From: Verrucomicrobiota bacterium
Lineage (GTDB): Bacteria; Verrucomicrobiota; Verrucomicrobiia; Chthoniobacterales; UBA10450
NCBI GenBank assembly: GCA_003219435.1
Contig: QHOW01000007.1
Location: 1 to 33,577 of the forward strand
DNA length: 33,577 nt
Direction: 5' to 3'
The stretch's first letter is position 1, and each line of letters begins with the position of its first letter. A program made the translations under genes and the position numbers. The notes below the pieces were generated by a model. It was not told the origin of the DNA. It saw only the letters and a list, made by a program, of their open reading frames with translations, and did no database searches. Of the stretch, positions 3,348 through 24,585 are shown piece after piece.

Positions 3348-5009
3348 GTGAGCTACGAGGTTTTCGCACGAAAATACCGGCCCCAGACTTTTGACGATCT
3401 GGTCGGCCAGCCGCACGTCTCGCGCACGCTGAAAAATGCGGTCACGCAAAACCGGCTCGCCCATGCCTATCTTTTCGTTGGACCGCGCGGAATCGGCAAA
3501 ACATCGACCGCTCGGATTCTGGCGAAATCACTCAATTGCGTAAACGGGCCAACTGCCACGCCATGCGGAGAATGTCACAACTGCCGCGAGATTGCAGCGG
3601 GCAACAGTCTCGACGTGATCGAGATCGATGGCGCCAGCAACAACAGCGTCGAAGACGTTCGCCAGCTTCGCGAGAATGTTCGTTATGCGCCTGCCAAAGG
3701 CCGTTACAAAATCTATCTCATCGACGAAGTGCACATGCTGTCAGCGGCGGCGTTTAATGCGCTTTTGAAGACGCTCGAGGAGCCACCAGCGCACGTGAAA
3801 TTTATTTTCGCGACCACCGAGCCGCAGAAAGTTTTGCCAACGATTTTGAGCCGTTGCCAGCGCTTCGATCTCCATCGTATCCCGGCAAATCTGATCGCGC
3901 AGCACCTTCAATTCATTGCTGGAAAAGAAAAAATCACATTGGAACCCGCGGCTGCGCATGCGATCGCGCGGGGCGCGGAAGGCGGTATGCGCGATGCAGA
4001 ATCGATGCTCGATCAGCTCGTCGCATTCTGCGGCGAAAAAATCAGTGAAAGTGATGTCTTGAACATATTCGGGTTCACAGCCGAACAAACCGTAGTCGAT
4101 CTTACCGGGCGGATTTTGCGCGGCGAAACACCCGCCGCGCTCGAACTCCTCTACGAGCAATGCGAAAGCGGCAAGGACATGATGCGACTCATGTCGGACT
4201 TGATTGTTTATCTGCGCGATCTGCTTGTGTTCAAGGCAAAACCGGATGTTCTGGATGAAGACATCGATCCTGATTTGAAAAAATCGCTCGCAGCGCATGC
4301 CGAATTGATCGAGACCGATCGTTTGCTCGACCTGATCGATCAATTGGCGGCCGCCGAAGGTCGAATGAAATGGGCGCCCAACAAGAAGCTCCATTTTGAG
4401 GTCGCAATCATCAGGGCGATCCAGAGCCTCGGACAAGCGACATTGGATGAGGTAATTGAGAGACTCAGTGAACTTCGCGATGGTGGTAGGGCGCGACCGC
4501 CGGGCGCGCCGCCCACGAAACCTGCAGCGGCGGGCTCTGACCGCGGCAACGAGGGATCGCGTCGGCAGAAAGCCGGGATCACCGATCCCGGCTACAGCAA
4601 AGCGGAAACCGCGCGCGTGGCCGAGACTGCGGTACAAAGCCAGCCTAACGCGGACGAATTGTGGCACAAGGTCCTCGCAAAAATTCCGGTGAAGGGATTT
4701 TTGCGTACGTTAAGCGAATCAATTCGTCCGATTGGAATCGATGGCCGCAATTTTTTGCTTGGGCATTCGCCGGATGATCAGTCGAAGGTTGAAGCGCTCG
4801 CCAGTCCAAATAATCGCCGCCAGTTGGAAACGCTTCTGGGAGAAGCAAGCGGGTGCGACTGGTCGGTGAGATTTGTGGCAAAGGAGGGAATTGTACCCCC
4901 GAAAGCTTTCGGGGCTGGTTCCGAAGCGGCGAGGTCAGTTGAATGGTTCGAAGATGATCGGCTCATCCAGGAGGCTCTTGAGATGTTCAATGCTCAAATC
5001 AAATCCTGA
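3348..5009 (+). CDS. dnaX: DNA polymerase III subunit gamma/tau
   Basis: YEVFARKYRPQTFDDLVGQ, GPRGIGKTSTARILAKSLNC Walker A, CGECHNCREI zinc motif, IDEVHMLS; GTG start at 3348. Confidence 0.96.
   Translation: MSYEVFARKYRPQTFDDLVGQPHVSRTLKNAVTQNRLAHAYLFVGPRGIGKTSTARILAKSLNCVNGPTATPCGECHNCREIAAGNSLDVIEIDGASNNSVEDVRQLRENVRYAPAKGRYKIYLIDEVHMLSAAAFNALLKTLEEPPAHVKFIFATTEPQKVLPTILSRCQRFDLHRIPANLIAQHLQFIAGKEKITLEPAAAHAIARGAEGGMRDAESMLDQLVAFCGEKISESDVLNIFGFTAEQTVVDLTGRILRGETPAALELLYEQCESGKDMMRLMSDLIVYLRDLLVFKAKPDVLDEDIDPDLKKSLAAHAELIETDRLLDLIDQLAAAEGRMKWAPNKKLHFEVAIIRAIQSLGQATLDEVIERLSELRDGGRARPPGAPPTKPAAAGSDRGNEGSRRQKAGITDPGYSKAETARVAETAVQSQPNADELWHKVLAKIPVKGFLRTLSESIRPIGIDGRNFLLGHSPDDQSKVEALASPNNRRQLETLLGEASGCDWSVRFVAKEGIVPPKAFGAGSEAARSVEWFEDDRLIQEALEMFNAQIKS
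4486..4510 (+). repeat. GTAG-headed REP-like palindrome, copy 1 (inside dnaX)
   Basis: GTAGGGCGCGACCGCCGGGCGCGCC. Confidence 0.85.
4572..4595 (-). repeat. second GTAG-headed palindrome family, inverted, inside dnaX
   Basis: Reverse complement GTA-GCCGGGATC-GGT-GATCCCGGC, 9-bp perfect stem. Confidence 0.7.
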
Positions 5010-5463: not shown

Positions 5464-6249
5464 ATGCTAACCGCCATCATTGTCGCGGCCGGCAGCAGCC
5501 AACGCATGGGGTTCGACAAGTTGTTTGCGACAATCGCCGGGAAACCGCTAATTGCGCACACGCTCCATGCGTTTGAGCGCGCCAGTTCTGTTAACGAAAT
5601 CATCGTTGTTGCGCGCGAGGATCGACACGGCGAAATCCGAAAGATCAGCCGTGCTGAGAACTTCAAAAGAATCCATTCGATCATCGAGGGCCGCGAACGT
5701 CGCCAAGATTCGGTTCGCGCTGGTCTGCATCAGCTCAGTGCCGCCGCCAAATATGTTGCTGTGCATGACGCGGCACGGCCGCTGATCACCCCGGAACAAA
5801 TCGAGCGTGTTTTTGAACAATGCCTGATCCACGGCGCTGCTGCACTGGCTGAACCAATCAACGACACGCTTAAGCGCGCCGATGTCGACCCATTGGGCTC
5901 GCGCTCCCACCACGGCGGGAAGGCAGACCAAGTTCTGGCAGTGGCCGGCTCGGTGGATCGGCATCGACTTTACGCGATGCAAACGCCACAAGTTTTCGAG
6001 CGCGCATTGATCGAGACAGCTTATCGCGCCGCTCACACTGAAAATGTTTCATTGACGGACGAAGTTTCCGCGGTCGAGCGACTCGGTCGCACAGTTGTTT
6101 TGGTCCTCAACGACGACTTCAATTTCAAAATCACTTATCAGCGAGATTTGGCGCTAGCTGAATTTCTTCTGAAGCAACGGCGCGCTCCGGCTGCAAATGG
6201 TAGGGCGCGACCGCCGGGCGCGCCCAGAAAAACTGACCACGGCAACTAA
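5464..6249 (+). CDS. ispD: 2-C-methyl-D-erythritol 4-phosphate cytidylyltransferase
   Basis: MLTAIIVAAGSSQRMGFDKLFATIAGKPLIAHTL, VHDAARPLITPEQIE, LTDEVSAVERLG; start taken at ATG 5464. Confidence 0.93.
   Translation: MLTAIIVAAGSSQRMGFDKLFATIAGKPLIAHTLHAFERASSVNEIIVVAREDRHGEIRKISRAENFKRIHSIIEGRERRQDSVRAGLHQLSAAAKYVAVHDAARPLITPEQIERVFEQCLIHGAAALAEPINDTLKRADVDPLGSRSHHGGKADQVLAVAGSVDRHRLYAMQTPQVFERALIETAYRAAHTENVSLTDEVSAVERLGRTVVLVLNDDFNFKITYQRDLALAEFLLKQRRAPAANGRARPPGAPRKTDHGN
6200..6224 (+). repeat. GTAG-headed REP-like palindrome, copy 2 (inside the ispD 3' end)
   Basis: GTAGGGCGCGACCGCCGGGCGCGCC, identical to copy 1. Confidence 0.85.
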
Positions 6250-7278: not shown

Positions 7279-8001
7279 TCAGCGTCCCATTGCAAGCCGT
7301 TCGGCAAGCGGCCGCGGCAGACCGGCCTCGATCACCTTTTTTTGCGCGGTCGCCAGATCGTATTTTACCCGTATCTGCTGGACGAGATTGTTCTCAACGT
7401 CGTAAACGCAGTAGGCGGCGCGCCAATTTCCGTCACGTGGTTGTCCAACACTGCCCACGTTAATGAAATATTTCTTAGCCGGCTCAATACGGACATGATC
7501 GATCAGCTCCCGTCTGACGCCCTCGTCGCGAATAAAAACCATGGGCACATGGGTGTGGCCAAAAAAGCAAATGGTCGTGTGCTGATACGTGAAACTCGCC
7601 GCCGCATCGAGGTTATTAAAAACGTAACCCCATTGCTCCGGCGTATCGAGCGTCGCGTGCACGATGGTGAAATCGCGCACCTGTTTTTGGAACGGCAGGT
7701 CGCGCAGCCATTGCTTGTCCTTTTCTGTCAGTTTATCGCGCGTCCATTTGATGGCGCGCTCGGCCAGCTGGTTAAAGTCGGTCGGGAATCTCGAGACCGA
7801 CGCCTGCTCGTCGTGGTTGCCTTTTACGGTGGGGCAATCCAGTTCGCGAACTCGTTCGAGGCACTCATGTGGATTCGCGTTGTAGCCGACCACGTCGCCC
7901 AGGCAGACAAAATGCGTGCACTTGCGCTGGCGCGCATCGGCCAGGACGGCTTCGAGCGCCTCCAGGTTGGCGTGGATATCACTGAAAATCGCGAAGCGCA
8001 T
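7279..8001 (-). CDS. metallophosphoesterase (YfcE/MJ0936-like)
   Basis: MRFAIFSDIHANLEALEAVL, CLGDVVGYNANPHEC, VKGNHDEQ, FFGHTHVPMVF, INVGSVGQPRD. Confidence 0.92.
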   Translation of the reverse strand: MRFAIFSDIHANLEALEAVLADARQRKCTHFVCLGDVVGYNANPHECLERVRELDCPTVKGNHDEQASVSRFPTDFNQLAERAIKWTRDKLTEKDKQWLRDLPFQKQVRDFTIVHATLDTPEQWGYVFNNLDAAASFTYQHTTICFFGHTHVPMVFIRDEGVRRELIDHVRIEPAKKYFINVGSVGQPRDGNWRAAYCVYDVENNLVQQIRVKYDLATAQKKVIEAGLPRPLAERLAMGR

Positions 8002-15550: not shown

Positions 15551-16039
15551 TTATTCTCTGGAGTTGCTCGGTCGATCTTGTCTAAAGGGATCGATGATCC
15601 GTGGCCAGTCTTTCGCCTGCGCGCACAACCCAGCAGCTACGGGATTTTCTCGGATGTAATTCATTTTGGCTGAGAGTTGTTCGCCGCGCTCATCCTCCCG
15701 CAGACGGCGATCGAAATATCCTTCCTGCCACATCACTCCGTTCTTATATGCGTGAAAACGTTTCCAGTCGCCAATGACGCCGCTCATCGATTCATCGCGA
15801 GGGAACGACAAAAGCGCGTGCAAATGATCCGGCATCAAAACGAACAGGTTGATGTGCCATCGGCGTTTAGAGTCATAAAACTGCGCTGACTTAAGGAGTA
15901 CCTGCGCCAACGATGCATCAACTAGCTGGCGTTGTTCCATTTTCCGATCAGGAGAGATACGGATGTGAAACGGCGCGCCTGGTTGAATCCAGTGAGGTAC
16001 TGTGTGATGCAACCGCTGCGGAAATCCGTGGTAAATCAC
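15551..16039 (-). CDS. REP-associated tyrosine transposase-like (Y1_Tnp/HUH) protein
   Basis: LFVLMPDHLHALLSFPRD (HUH), WQEGYFDRRLREDE, MNYIRENPVAAGLCAQAKDWP, typical of RAYT/PF01797-like proteins. Confidence 0.85.
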   Translation of the reverse strand: MIYHGFPQRLHHTVPHWIQPGAPFHIRISPDRKMEQRQLVDASLAQVLLKSAQFYDSKRRWHINLFVLMPDHLHALLSFPRDESMSGVIGDWKRFHAYKNGVMWQEGYFDRRLREDERGEQLSAKMNYIRENPVAAGLCAQAKDWPRIIDPFRQDRPSNSRE

Positions 16040-16048
16040 GGCATTAAA

Positions 16049-16672
16049 TTAGCATCGCGCCCGGAGGTCGCGATCCACCAGCACCAACCGAAAGTGCGCG
16101 TCGAATTTTCCGCGATTATGTGCACGGCAACAGGCCAGACATGCAACTGCACGTTTAATCCGACGCACGCGAGGAAAATTGCGCTGGCAATTTGGACACC
16201 TGTAAAGATAGCGGCGAGCACGTTCGCTGACTGGGAACGGGAGATTATGACAGCGCCTCTCATCGCTAATCCCAAGATCGCGGCAAGCCTGCCGCCACTC
16301 AATACCATGGGGCAGAATCCGGCGCCGGCCCGCGCGAAATTGGGCAAGGATATGGGCCAGTTCGTGGCGCAGCGTTTGATCGATTTCGGCTGGATGCTCA
16401 AACAGCCGCGGATTCAGCGAGATGAGTTTCTGGCGATAATCAGCGCGACCAGCGGCCGTTCGCAGACGTGAATTCCACTTGACGCGAAGGTCCCGCGCGC
16501 CGCGCGCCGCGCCGAGTGAACACAAAAGCGCGCAGGCTTTTGTTTCAAGATTGACATCGCGCTGCCGGAATTTTAGGGCAAGCGCTTCAGTTGGGGTTTG
16601 AGGATTCGGTGGGCGGAGCGCCTCCCATACGACTGTCTGGAACGCGAACTCGAGTTGCCTAAGCAACGGCAT
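16049..16672 (-). CDS. SprT-like zinc metallopeptidase-domain protein
   Basis: DQTLRHELAHILAQ (HExxH), CPNCQRNFPR ... CLAC zinc ribbon; overlaps the upstream gene by 14 nt. Confidence 0.8.
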   Translation of the reverse strand: MPLLRQLEFAFQTVVWEALRPPNPQTPTEALALKFRQRDVNLETKACALLCSLGAARGARDLRVKWNSRLRTAAGRADYRQKLISLNPRLFEHPAEIDQTLRHELAHILAQFRAGRRRILPHGIEWRQACRDLGISDERRCHNLPFPVSERARRYLYRCPNCQRNFPRVRRIKRAVACLACCRAHNRGKFDAHFRLVLVDRDLRARC

Positions 16673-17942
16673 AGGCGCTCTTTCGCTTGTTCAAGCGCGC
16701 AACAATCTTCCCGATGGCGTCTCCGGCGGCTTTGATTTCATCAGCAGTTGTCCATTTACCGAGTGAAAATCGAACTGCGGAGCGCGCGCGCTCGATCGGC
16801 AAGCCCATCGCGAGCAAGACATGGGACGCGACTACTGATCCGACCATGCAGGCCGATCCGCTCGACGCGCAGACGCCCTCCAAATCGAGTGCCATTAACA
16901 TCGTTTCCGAGTCGATGCCGGTGAAACTTATGTTGAGCGTGTTAGCAAGCCGATGACTGATGTCGCCATTTTGCCGCGCGTCAGGAAAAATTTCGGCGAT
17001 TCGTCTCCATAATTCGTCTCGCAATTGCGCTTCACGTTTCTGTTCGCCGTCTCGATTGCGCAGCGCCCACTCAGCCGCCGCTGCCATTCCCGCAATCGCG
17101 GCCACGTTTTCCGTACCGGGTCGCCGCTCATTCTCGTGCGCGCCACCAAACATGATCGGCTGGATCGACAGACCGCTGCGCAAGAAAAGAAATCCGGCGC
17201 CCTTCGGTCCGTAAAATTTGTGTGCAGCGAAACTCGCGGCATCAACAAGAGAAAGATTAACATGGTCATCCAGAGCCCCGAAGGCTTTCGGGGTCGAAGG
17301 ATCCCGCGGCGTTAACTTTGAGGCGGCATCGCCGGATTCCTCGACCCATTCGACTTCGCTCAGGGCGAGACTTTCGCTCGGAATGACAAGTGGCACTTTG
17401 CCGAATGATTGCACCATGTCGCTGTGCAATAGGACGCCGCGCTCCCGGCATATCTGGGAAATTTCATGCATCGGCTGAATCACGCCGGTCTCGTTGTTCG
17501 CGGTCATGATCGAAACCAGCCGCGTTTCGGGTCGGATCGCGGCGGCAAGTTGATCGAGGTCGACAATTCCTTCGCGCGAAACGTTCAACCACGTTACTTC
17601 GAAATTTTCATGCTTTTCCAAGTGCTCGATTGCGTTGAGCACCGCGTGGTGCTCGGTTTTGGCTGAAATCACGTGACCTCCTCGTTCCATCCGACATCGC
17701 GCCAGGCCGAACACAGCGAGATTACACGACTCAGTTCCTCCACTTGTGAAAATGATTTCGTTCGGTTTCGCCCGCAGCAGCCCGGCGAGTTTGTCGCGAG
17801 CATTGTCGATTGCCGCGCGGGCCTCGCGACCGGCTGCGTGCACACTGGACGGATTACCAAAGTGCCGGTCGAGATACGGCAACATCGCTTCACGCGCTGG
17901 CTCGCACAGCGGAGTCGTTGCGTTGCAATCGAGATAAATCAT
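16659..17942 (-). CDS. cysteine desulfurase (NifS/IscS family) with a 42-aa in-frame insertion
   Basis: MIYLDCNATTPLCEPAREAM, SGGTESCNLAV, MTANNETGVIQP, FAAHKFYGPKGAGFL, SSGSACMVG. Confidence 0.93.
   Translation of the reverse strand: MIYLDCNATTPLCEPAREAMLPYLDRHFGNPSSVHAAGREARAAIDNARDKLAGLLRAKPNEIIFTSGGTESCNLAVFGLARCRMERGGHVISAKTEHHAVLNAIEHLEKHENFEVTWLNVSREGIVDLDQLAAAIRPETRLVSIMTANNETGVIQPMHEISQICRERGVLLHSDMVQSFGKVPLVIPSESLALSEVEWVEESGDAASKLTPRDPSTPKAFGALDDHVNLSLVDAASFAAHKFYGPKGAGFLFLRSGLSIQPIMFGGAHENERRPGTENVAAIAGMAAAAEWALRNRDGEQKREAQLRDELWRRIAEIFPDARQNGDISHRLANTLNISFTGIDSETMLMALDLEGVCASSGSACMVGSVVASHVLLAMGLPIERARSAVRFSLGKWTTADEIKAAGDAIGKIVARLNKRKSAYAVA
17264..17391 (-). repeat. in-frame dispersed-repeat insertion in the cysteine desulfurase gene
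   Basis: Encodes VIPSESLALSEVEWVEESGDAASKLTPRDPSTPKAFGALDDH between QSFGKVPL and VNLSLVDAASFAAHKFYGPKG; near-inverted ends GTCATTCC ... GGATGAC on the minus strand. Confidence 0.7.
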
Positions 17943-18003
17943 TAAGTCGTACTCGTATGCTTACTCATGCTCATGCTCGTGCTTATTTGCCTCCGCAATC
18001 CCC

Positions 18004-18028
18004 GGCGCGCCCGGCGGTCGCGCCCTAC
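18004..18028 (-). repeat. GTAG-headed REP-like palindrome, copy 3 (intergenic)
   Basis: Reverse complement is exactly GTAGGGCGCGACCGCCGGGCGCGCC, identical to 4486-4510 and 6200-6224. Confidence 0.85.
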
Positions 18029-18031
18029 CAA

Positions 18032-18961: not shown

Positions 18962-19074
18962 GGGAAATATGCGCCCGCTTCTCAGTGAACAAAAGCGAAA
19001 CTGTAGGGGATTTCGCTCGTGGTTCAATTCGTGATCGAATTTCGGTGAGCAAGAGCACGAGGTAATCAGCTTCT

Positions 19075-19661
19075 CATTAACACCGGCCTTCAGGCCGGTG
19101 ATCACGAGCGAAAGATAGACATAAGCCGTTTCAACGGCCTACGATCCGGAGGATGTCCGCTCATTCGTACTCTCGTTGCTGGGTTCACTTAATTTGGGGA
19201 ACTCTGAATCGCGAGAAACTGCTGAACAAAACGGCTGCGGCGCGTGTATCTCGCTATCTTGCCGAATACGCTGAAAAGCAAGGCGTTTACATGAAAATCA
19301 ATTACGTAAACGCGGACCACGTTCATACGCTTGTCGATCTTCCAACTGCCCTCTCAATCGAGAAACTGATGCAGCTCATAAAGGGAAGCTCTTCGCATTG
19401 GATCAATTCGTCCAACCTAATCACAGGAAAATTCGCCTGGGGCAGAGGATATGGCGCCTTCTCAGTGTCGGAATCGAATGTGGATCAGGTCGCCGGATAT
19501 ATAAGGCGACAAGAGGAACATCATCGCGTGAGTACATTCGCCGAGGAACTCAGGGAATTCATCGATCGCCACGGACTACGCTGGAAAGATGAGGGAAGCC
19601 GTTAAAACGGCTTCGGATCCCTCGACACGCGTCGTCACCGGCCTCAAGGCCGGTGTTAATG
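19075..19661 (+). mobile_element. minimal Y1-transposase element bounded by mirrored double hairpins
   Basis: 27-bp terminal inverted repeat CATTAACACCGGCCTTCAGGCCGGTGA (19075-19101) versus reverse complement of 19635-19661 (one mismatch); inner hairpins GCCGTT-TC-AACGGC (19125-19138) and GAAGCCGTT-AA-AACGGCTTC (19595-19614). Confidence 0.8.
19153..19605 (+). CDS. Y1/HUH transposase (IS200/TnpA-REP-like)
   Basis: SRCWVHLIWGTLNREKLL, INYVNADHVHTLVDLP (HUH), VDQVAGYIRRQEEHHR (candidate catalytic Tyr). Confidence 0.87.
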   Translation: MSAHSYSRCWVHLIWGTLNREKLLNKTAAARVSRYLAEYAEKQGVYMKINYVNADHVHTLVDLPTALSIEKLMQLIKGSSSHWINSSNLITGKFAWGRGYGAFSVSESNVDQVAGYIRRQEEHHRVSTFAEELREFIDRHGLRWKDEGSR

Positions 19662-19753
19662 AAGATTCCGTCGAACCGATACTCTGTTTTGTAACCCTTT
19701 TTAACGACGTAACGACGAAAACGTGGGGAAGCCCAATCGACTTTCCATCTCGC

Positions 19754-24246: not shown

Positions 24247-24585
24247 ATGAACGCTCATCTTAGACCTGAAGATCGACTATCGATCTTGCACACTGAAGAT
24301 CAATTCAGACGCTGGCAATCGCTCGATGATGAGCGCCTTTGCATCCTTTGCGAGAGAAAGTTCAACGGACGTCAAGTCGAAGTCCGGCGCTTTGCCAATG
24401 GCAAACATGAATTGCACTGTCCGACCGAAGGGTGCGACTCGGGACCGCACCAGTGGGTCTATCCGGGAACTCCGTTGGTTTCCGACATCGTTGATCCAGA
24501 CTGGTGGCACGCTTTAGGAAAAGAACCTCGAACGCTTTCGGGGCTGAGCAGTCGCCCTCGATTCCAAAGGCAAGAACACGTGTGA
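24247..24585 (+). CDS. small zinc-ribbon protein
   Basis: LSILHTEDQFRRWQSLDDERLCILCERKFNGRQVEV...HCPTEGC (CxxC...CxxxxC); 4-nt GTGA overlap with the sigma-factor gene. Confidence 0.65.
   Translation: MNAHLRPEDRLSILHTEDQFRRWQSLDDERLCILCERKFNGRQVEVRRFANGKHELHCPTEGCDSGPHQWVYPGTPLVSDIVDPDWWHALGKEPRTLSGLSSRPRFQRQEHV

Follow-up and report, generated by a model that had tools for sequence, protein, structure and literature searches.

A dispersed palindromic repeat in frame within a cysteine desulfurase gene of Verrucomicrobiota

How does a conserved enzyme gene come to carry, just ahead of the codon for its catalytic lysine, some forty codons that most of its orthologues lack, and what becomes of them in the protein? 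The question is raised by a window of 33,577 nucleotides (the whole stretch analysed, contig C65 here) from an 85%-complete genome of 2.73 Mb in 317 contigs, whose relatives are soil Verrucomicrobiota genomes.

The cysteine desulfurase and its inserted segment

The host gene (16659..17942, minus strand) is an iscS/nifS-like cysteine desulfurase gene, which encodes a stop-free product of 427 aa. Pfam assigned the open reading frame to Aminotran_5 (2.6e-74), with a match that is interrupted after residue 185, and cysteine desulfurases are the nearest solved structures to the product, in sequence as well as in fold matches to the PDB. In an alignment of 34 sequences, D175, Q178, K242, C365, and R391 are invariant, including the catalytic lysine (K242) and cysteine (C365) of the PLP fold, and H99 is present inside a nearly invariant block; the catalytic motifs are intact, as the original prediction had held. 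A second cysteine desulfurase, 52% identical to the insert-bearing one, is encoded in the same genome, and tolerance of the insert may therefore partly reflect redundancy. One of three identical 27-nt GTAG-type repeats of the window, TGGTAGGGCGCGACCGCCGGGCGCGCC, is located some 60 nt ahead of the start of iscS (18003-18030, minus strand), the other two being found at 4484-4511 and 6198-6224 on the plus strand.

The stretch leading to the PLP lysine is interrupted as ...VQSFGKVPL[VIPSESLALSEVEWVEESGDAASKLTPRDPSTPKAFGALDD]HVNLSLVDAASFAAHKFYGPKG... by the inserted segment VIPSESLALSEVEWVEESGDAASKLTPRDPSTPKAFGALDD. The original prediction had placed an in-frame insertion of 42 residues (126 nt) here; the open reading frame and the orthologue alignment both reveal the split of the conserved stretch, and the insert is indeed in frame, while its size was right to within a codon. 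The element proper, running from GTC to GAC in codon phase (17387 down to 17265), comprises 123 nt or 41 codons, with a net gain of about 43 codons over the empty iscS orthologues of 384 aa. This palindromic element, GTCATTCCGAGCG...CTGGATGAC, translated as VIPSE...GALDD (17265..17387, minus strand), is recognised by its sequence, its dispersed copies, the empty orthologues, and low pLDDT, and shows the inverted ends GTCATTCC/GGATGAC that had been pointed out. Its left arm (17335..17387, minus strand) is a long variant of the unit GTC-ATTCC...GGAAT-C, a close copy of which is found elsewhere in the same genome (G000:C180:16496-16551; 93% over 56 nt), and contains a 27-nt in-frame extension, SLALSEVEW (17346..17372, minus strand), which among six carriers occurs only in the iscS copy of this genome. 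The codon of the PLP lysine, K242 (17217..17219, minus strand), within the conserved AAHK motif, follows about 15 codons downstream of the element's last codon.

A second palindrome within the insert had also been noticed, and is present at 17276..17293 as the mini-palindrome CCCCGAAGGCTTTCGGGG, a member of repeat family D5 found again at 4897-4917 and 24526-24546. This inner palindrome, CCCCGAAAGCYTTCGGGG, is a separately dispersed mini-repeat nested in the right arm of the element, with more copies in other contexts. Right arms of the iscS inserts have two forms, PKAFGA and PLRSAQ, and it is the PKAFGA form that holds the nested mini-palindrome. At another locus of the genome (L015, contig C235, ~7844-7861), the mini-palindrome CCCCGAAAGCCTTCGGGG occupies the place expected of the anticodon arm in a truncated tRNA-Lys-like sequence, which adjoins an intact tRNA-Lys gene and is probably a tRNA remnant struck by this repeat. 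The hexamer CCACTT, considered as a part of the element, was uninformative, since it also precedes some unrelated copies.

The AlphaFold model of the insert-bearing enzyme, built with 34 sequences, reached a mean pLDDT of 84, with most of the core over 90, and matched human Nfs1 and E. coli IscS in fold with a TM of about 0.8-0.9. Residues 187-225, within the insert, stayed under 50. The inserted loop is thus predicted to be disordered, and would be located on the surface, judging from this predicted disorder and from the gap into which it falls when the sequence is aligned with solved structures. The model, in which the fold is intact and the loop unstructured, agrees with the extra-loop reading proposed at the outset.

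The repeat family and its relation to known REPs

The proposed origin from a mobile repeat was borne out by a genome-wide search, in which the DNA of the element was by no means unique: a 128-nt query revealed at least 46 matches in the source genome, and the tag end GTCATTCCGAGCG, with at most one mismatch, was found at least 47 times versus once for a reversed-pattern control, genome-wide copy counts being lower bounds throughout. All 35 genomes of the genus carry the element, as do 21 of 117 genomes in an order-wide sample, nearly all of which belong to the same family; G036 displays 88 tag ends. The suspected likeness to dispersed repeats of several phyla also holds, as a 29-nt consensus stretch recurs exactly in Hymenobacter, Chloroflexi, Parcubacteria, Microgenomates, Kiritimatiellae, Lentisphaerae, Clostridia bins, and others; the isolates of Hymenobacter frequently show it twice, in inverted arrangement. 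A plasmid collection searched with the element returned short chance matches only, and a literature search by the sequence letters of the repeat yielded no paper.

Copies are built as a head-to-head pair of units GTC-ATTCC...GGAAT-C flanking a variable spacer. A search demanding both ends, which says nothing on the proportion of dimers, gathered 147 elements, 68-134 nt long, whose two tag ends face outward, with modes at 82-83 and 91-93 nt. Among 257 distinct copies, T or C stands before GTCAT in 214, and the arms read GTC-ATTCC...GGAAT-C or GTC-ATCC...GGAT-C in 210. Compared with shuffled sequences, three of five copies fold into clearly better hairpins (z about -3.5), the iscS copy being weakly better (z -1.4). 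A special coding ability of the element was rejected, with an average of 2.2 open frames per copy versus 2.6 in shuffles; since open frames are not unusually common in it, selection after insertion suffices to explain the open frames that we describe below.

CGTC- and GTAG-tagged REPs, with in-frame intragenic copies, were described by Di Nocera and colleagues in 2013 (PMC3733652). The CGTC-tagged ones, which include RPE-4/RPE-6 of Rickettsia and dRS3 of Neisseria, have a stem of 8-9 bp, a loop of 4-5 nt, and a terminal CGTC, often TGTC, and form mostly head-to-head dimers; five phyla were given for them, Verrucomicrobiota not being among these (PMC3733652). Judged by its sequence, the iscS element resembles CGTC-tagged REP dimers: it shares the YGTC tag, the AT start of the stem, the head-to-head arrangement, the lack of a dedicated transposase, and the occasional location in frame inside genes. 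In comparison with the short stem and loop of those REPs, its arms are longer and less perfect; by reading, the units reveal about five perfect pairs (ATTCC/GGAAT) followed by mismatches at a similar overall unit size. To the eye, their tails read mostly CCC or TCT, the tail consensus of the CGTC-tagged REPs being CCA. Compared by description, the element is also similar to RPE-1, with palindromes of ~100-150 nt in frame in conserved genes and tolerated as extra loops. It differs in its host phylum, and the guanylate kinase activity tests, covered with the Rickettsia elements in a review by Delihas (PMC2229807), belong to RPE alone.

From GTAG-tagged REPs with their RAYTs, the iscS element differs in that it lacks a GTAG tag and is not adjacent to a RAYT gene in this genome. 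None of the 12 Y1 genes (Y1_Tnp) of the genome is flanked by the element, and a mobilisation by RAYT was rejected on this ground. One Y1 (IS200/RAYT-like) transposase gene of the window (19153-19605, within 19074-19662) lies between the copies of a 33-nt inverted repeat that includes the hairpin ACCGGCCTTNAGGCCGGT, an arrangement that is found again at a second locus (L370); another Y1 gene of the window is located at 15551-16039.

Linkers and loops of other conserved genes

The element family is also found in frame in the genes for IleRS, a LigD-type ligase, Tgt, Obg, RNase D, PBP1C, and a ValRS of the CPR, in reading frames and orientations that vary among the hosts. Pfam revealed domains on either side of the insert or one domain split by it. 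For ValRS (L236, Candidatus Magasanikbacteria, PFLZ01000166), the 29-nt consensus lies in frame between the anticodon domain and the C-terminal arm. The N-terminal cases AspRS (C10), XerC (L159), and NuoC-like (L161) were left out of this intragenic set, since the start of translation may lie beyond the repeat; for AspRS, a copy just upstream of the aspartyl-tRNA synthetase gene (L166, contig C10 of the source genome, 4023-4113) creates an open N-terminal extension which is probably untranslated.

Two linkers were read across the genus. The length of the ligase linker is a multiple of three in all 30 genomes read (L316-L345); four of them have GTCATTCC elements there, which are scattered (4 changes on the tree), and in close relatives this position is taken by GTAGGGCGCGACC or GTAGGGCAGGCG repeats. 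The IleRS linkers (L286-L312) are in frame and open in 26 of 26 cases, with a GTCATCC/GTCATTCC element in five genomes, a CTCTCCCC..GGGGAGAGG repeat in three, and a GTAGCCGGGG repeat in at least four, while about ten have no more than a short linker. The CTCTCCCC family apart, three of the other linker-occupying families are dispersed elsewhere in the genomes. Sister species thus hold different, unrelated repeat families in frame at both linkers, some of which (GTAGGGCG..., GTAGCCGG...) bear the GTAG tag of the REPs mentioned above, and this hot-spot pattern is unusually clear. REP hosts reported before include genes for DNA ligase and for tRNA synthetases, linkers and loops have been suggested as REP-tolerant places, and in two Xanthomonas species REPs of different kinds occupy nearly one and the same site in recB; intragenic REPs were most abundant in Rickettsia conorii and the verrucomicrobium Opitutus terrae, in the latter with copies of GTAG REPs (all PMC3733652).

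An alternative in which no loop arises, with the element excised from the RNA or bypassed by the ribosome, could appeal to the strong hairpins of the family. It is hardly credible, as openness and a length divisible by three would then be needless, yet every ligase and IleRS linker read conforms to them, and for the iscS copy the advantage in folding over its shuffles is weak. Rather doubtful, too, is the stronger claim that linkers and loops of essential enzymes in the genus are preferred docking sites where unrelated families insert and displace each other, and that the GTCATTCC element repeatedly enters the same iscS codon across species, which would imply target-directed insertion instead of random hits filtered by selection.

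Carriers and history of the iscS insertion

The insert is found in six of 28 aligned iscS orthologues (G000, G034, G031, G030, G027, and G005) and is missing from the other 22, so that it is not a phylum-wide feature. Site, orientation, and a common spacer motif are the same in all six, and the insert is in frame in five of the six species. The iscS of G005 (L066, contig C78) has the insert and is frameshifted downstream of it, as a pseudogene or through a sequencing error, and the frameshift gives it a long branch on the iscS tree. That the repeat merely misjoined two pieces during assembly can practically be dismissed: fragmentation into 317 contigs invites the suspicion, but one conserved protein is read in a continuous frame to either side of the insert, and six genomes, each assembled separately, share this junction.

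Among the carriers, the inserted peptide shows a dN/dS of 1.09 versus 0.05-0.07 for the iscS flanks; iscS outside the insert is under strong purifying selection, and the inserted peptide is unconstrained in its amino acids. A recruitment of the peptide to serve, for instance, in regulation or in the binding of a partner, to which the open frame in five of six carrier species might point, is very unlikely in view of this ratio, of arms and lengths that differ among carriers, and of the predicted disorder. Synonymous divergence (dS) is 0.17 for the insert as opposed to 1.1-1.6 for its flanks, and the 60 nt on each side have diverged as much as the remaining gene, on account of which a recombination tract around the insertion was rejected. 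With this low value and the scatter of carriers on gene trees, the iscS insertion probably postdates the split of the species, unless a constraint on a DNA or RNA hairpin is at work. Comparison of filled and empty iscS sites of sister species revealed no clean target-site duplication of the kind that marks a MITE.

The shared site, orientation, and spacer motif, as well as the fact that the iscS inserts are each other's best matches and are more alike than they are like most other copies, would suit a single ancient insertion in the ancestor of the clade, inherited vertically with many losses. This is an improbable history, however: with the insert stripped from the alignment, the carriers need 6 changes on the iscS tree, where a single clade is rejected (AU p 0.0002, with G005 as a long branch), and 5 on the ligase tree, the insert dS is far below that of the flanks despite unconstrained amino acids, and each loss would have had to regenerate the empty site free of any footprint. 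Given this dS and the scatter of carriers on two gene trees, a single old event is less likely than either repeated insertion or sideways spread. A single insertion passed sideways among species, via recombination or conversion limited to the repeat, is a real possibility, if still a minority one; it fits the patchy carriers, the closely similar inserts, and a low dS confined to the insert, and the mutual likeness of the six inserts suits independent insertion less well. The transferred tract would, however, have to stop at the repeat, where the diverged flanks begin, and some non-iscS copies are about equally similar to the iscS inserts (90-93% over 70 nt). As the inserts are the most alike, recurrent insertion by one active subfamily and sideways spread both remain candidates.

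The reading that we favour with considerable confidence is that a non-autonomous palindromic repeat, a head-to-head CGTC-like REP dimer, inserted in frame in iscS and is most likely translated as a tolerated, disordered loop without a selected peptide function, linkers and loops in the genus being safe landing sites for several REP families. The element would be transposed by an enzyme acting in trans and would have landed in the loop just upstream of the strand with the PLP lysine, with a length and phase that leave the frame open; landing would be random, with survival only where the frame stays open and the loop is tolerated. The insert-bearing desulfurase may keep its activity, and several unrelated REP families would likewise insert in, and replace each other at, linkers and loops of conserved genes in the genus.

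Intragenic REPs are already known; what is new here is a CGTC-like family of Verrucomicrobiota with evidence of age, of selection, and of repeated linker occupation by unrelated families. For annotators, there is a caution in that peptides such as VIPSEVEES or HSERSRGIP flag repeats and not protein families. Dispersed repeats are seen here adding stretches of peptide to essential enzymes, and sister species offer a given gene empty, filled, or filled with something else. This amounts to a natural experiment on the places where proteins put up with random sequence, on the lifetime of inserts, and on the movement of elements without a transposase of their own.
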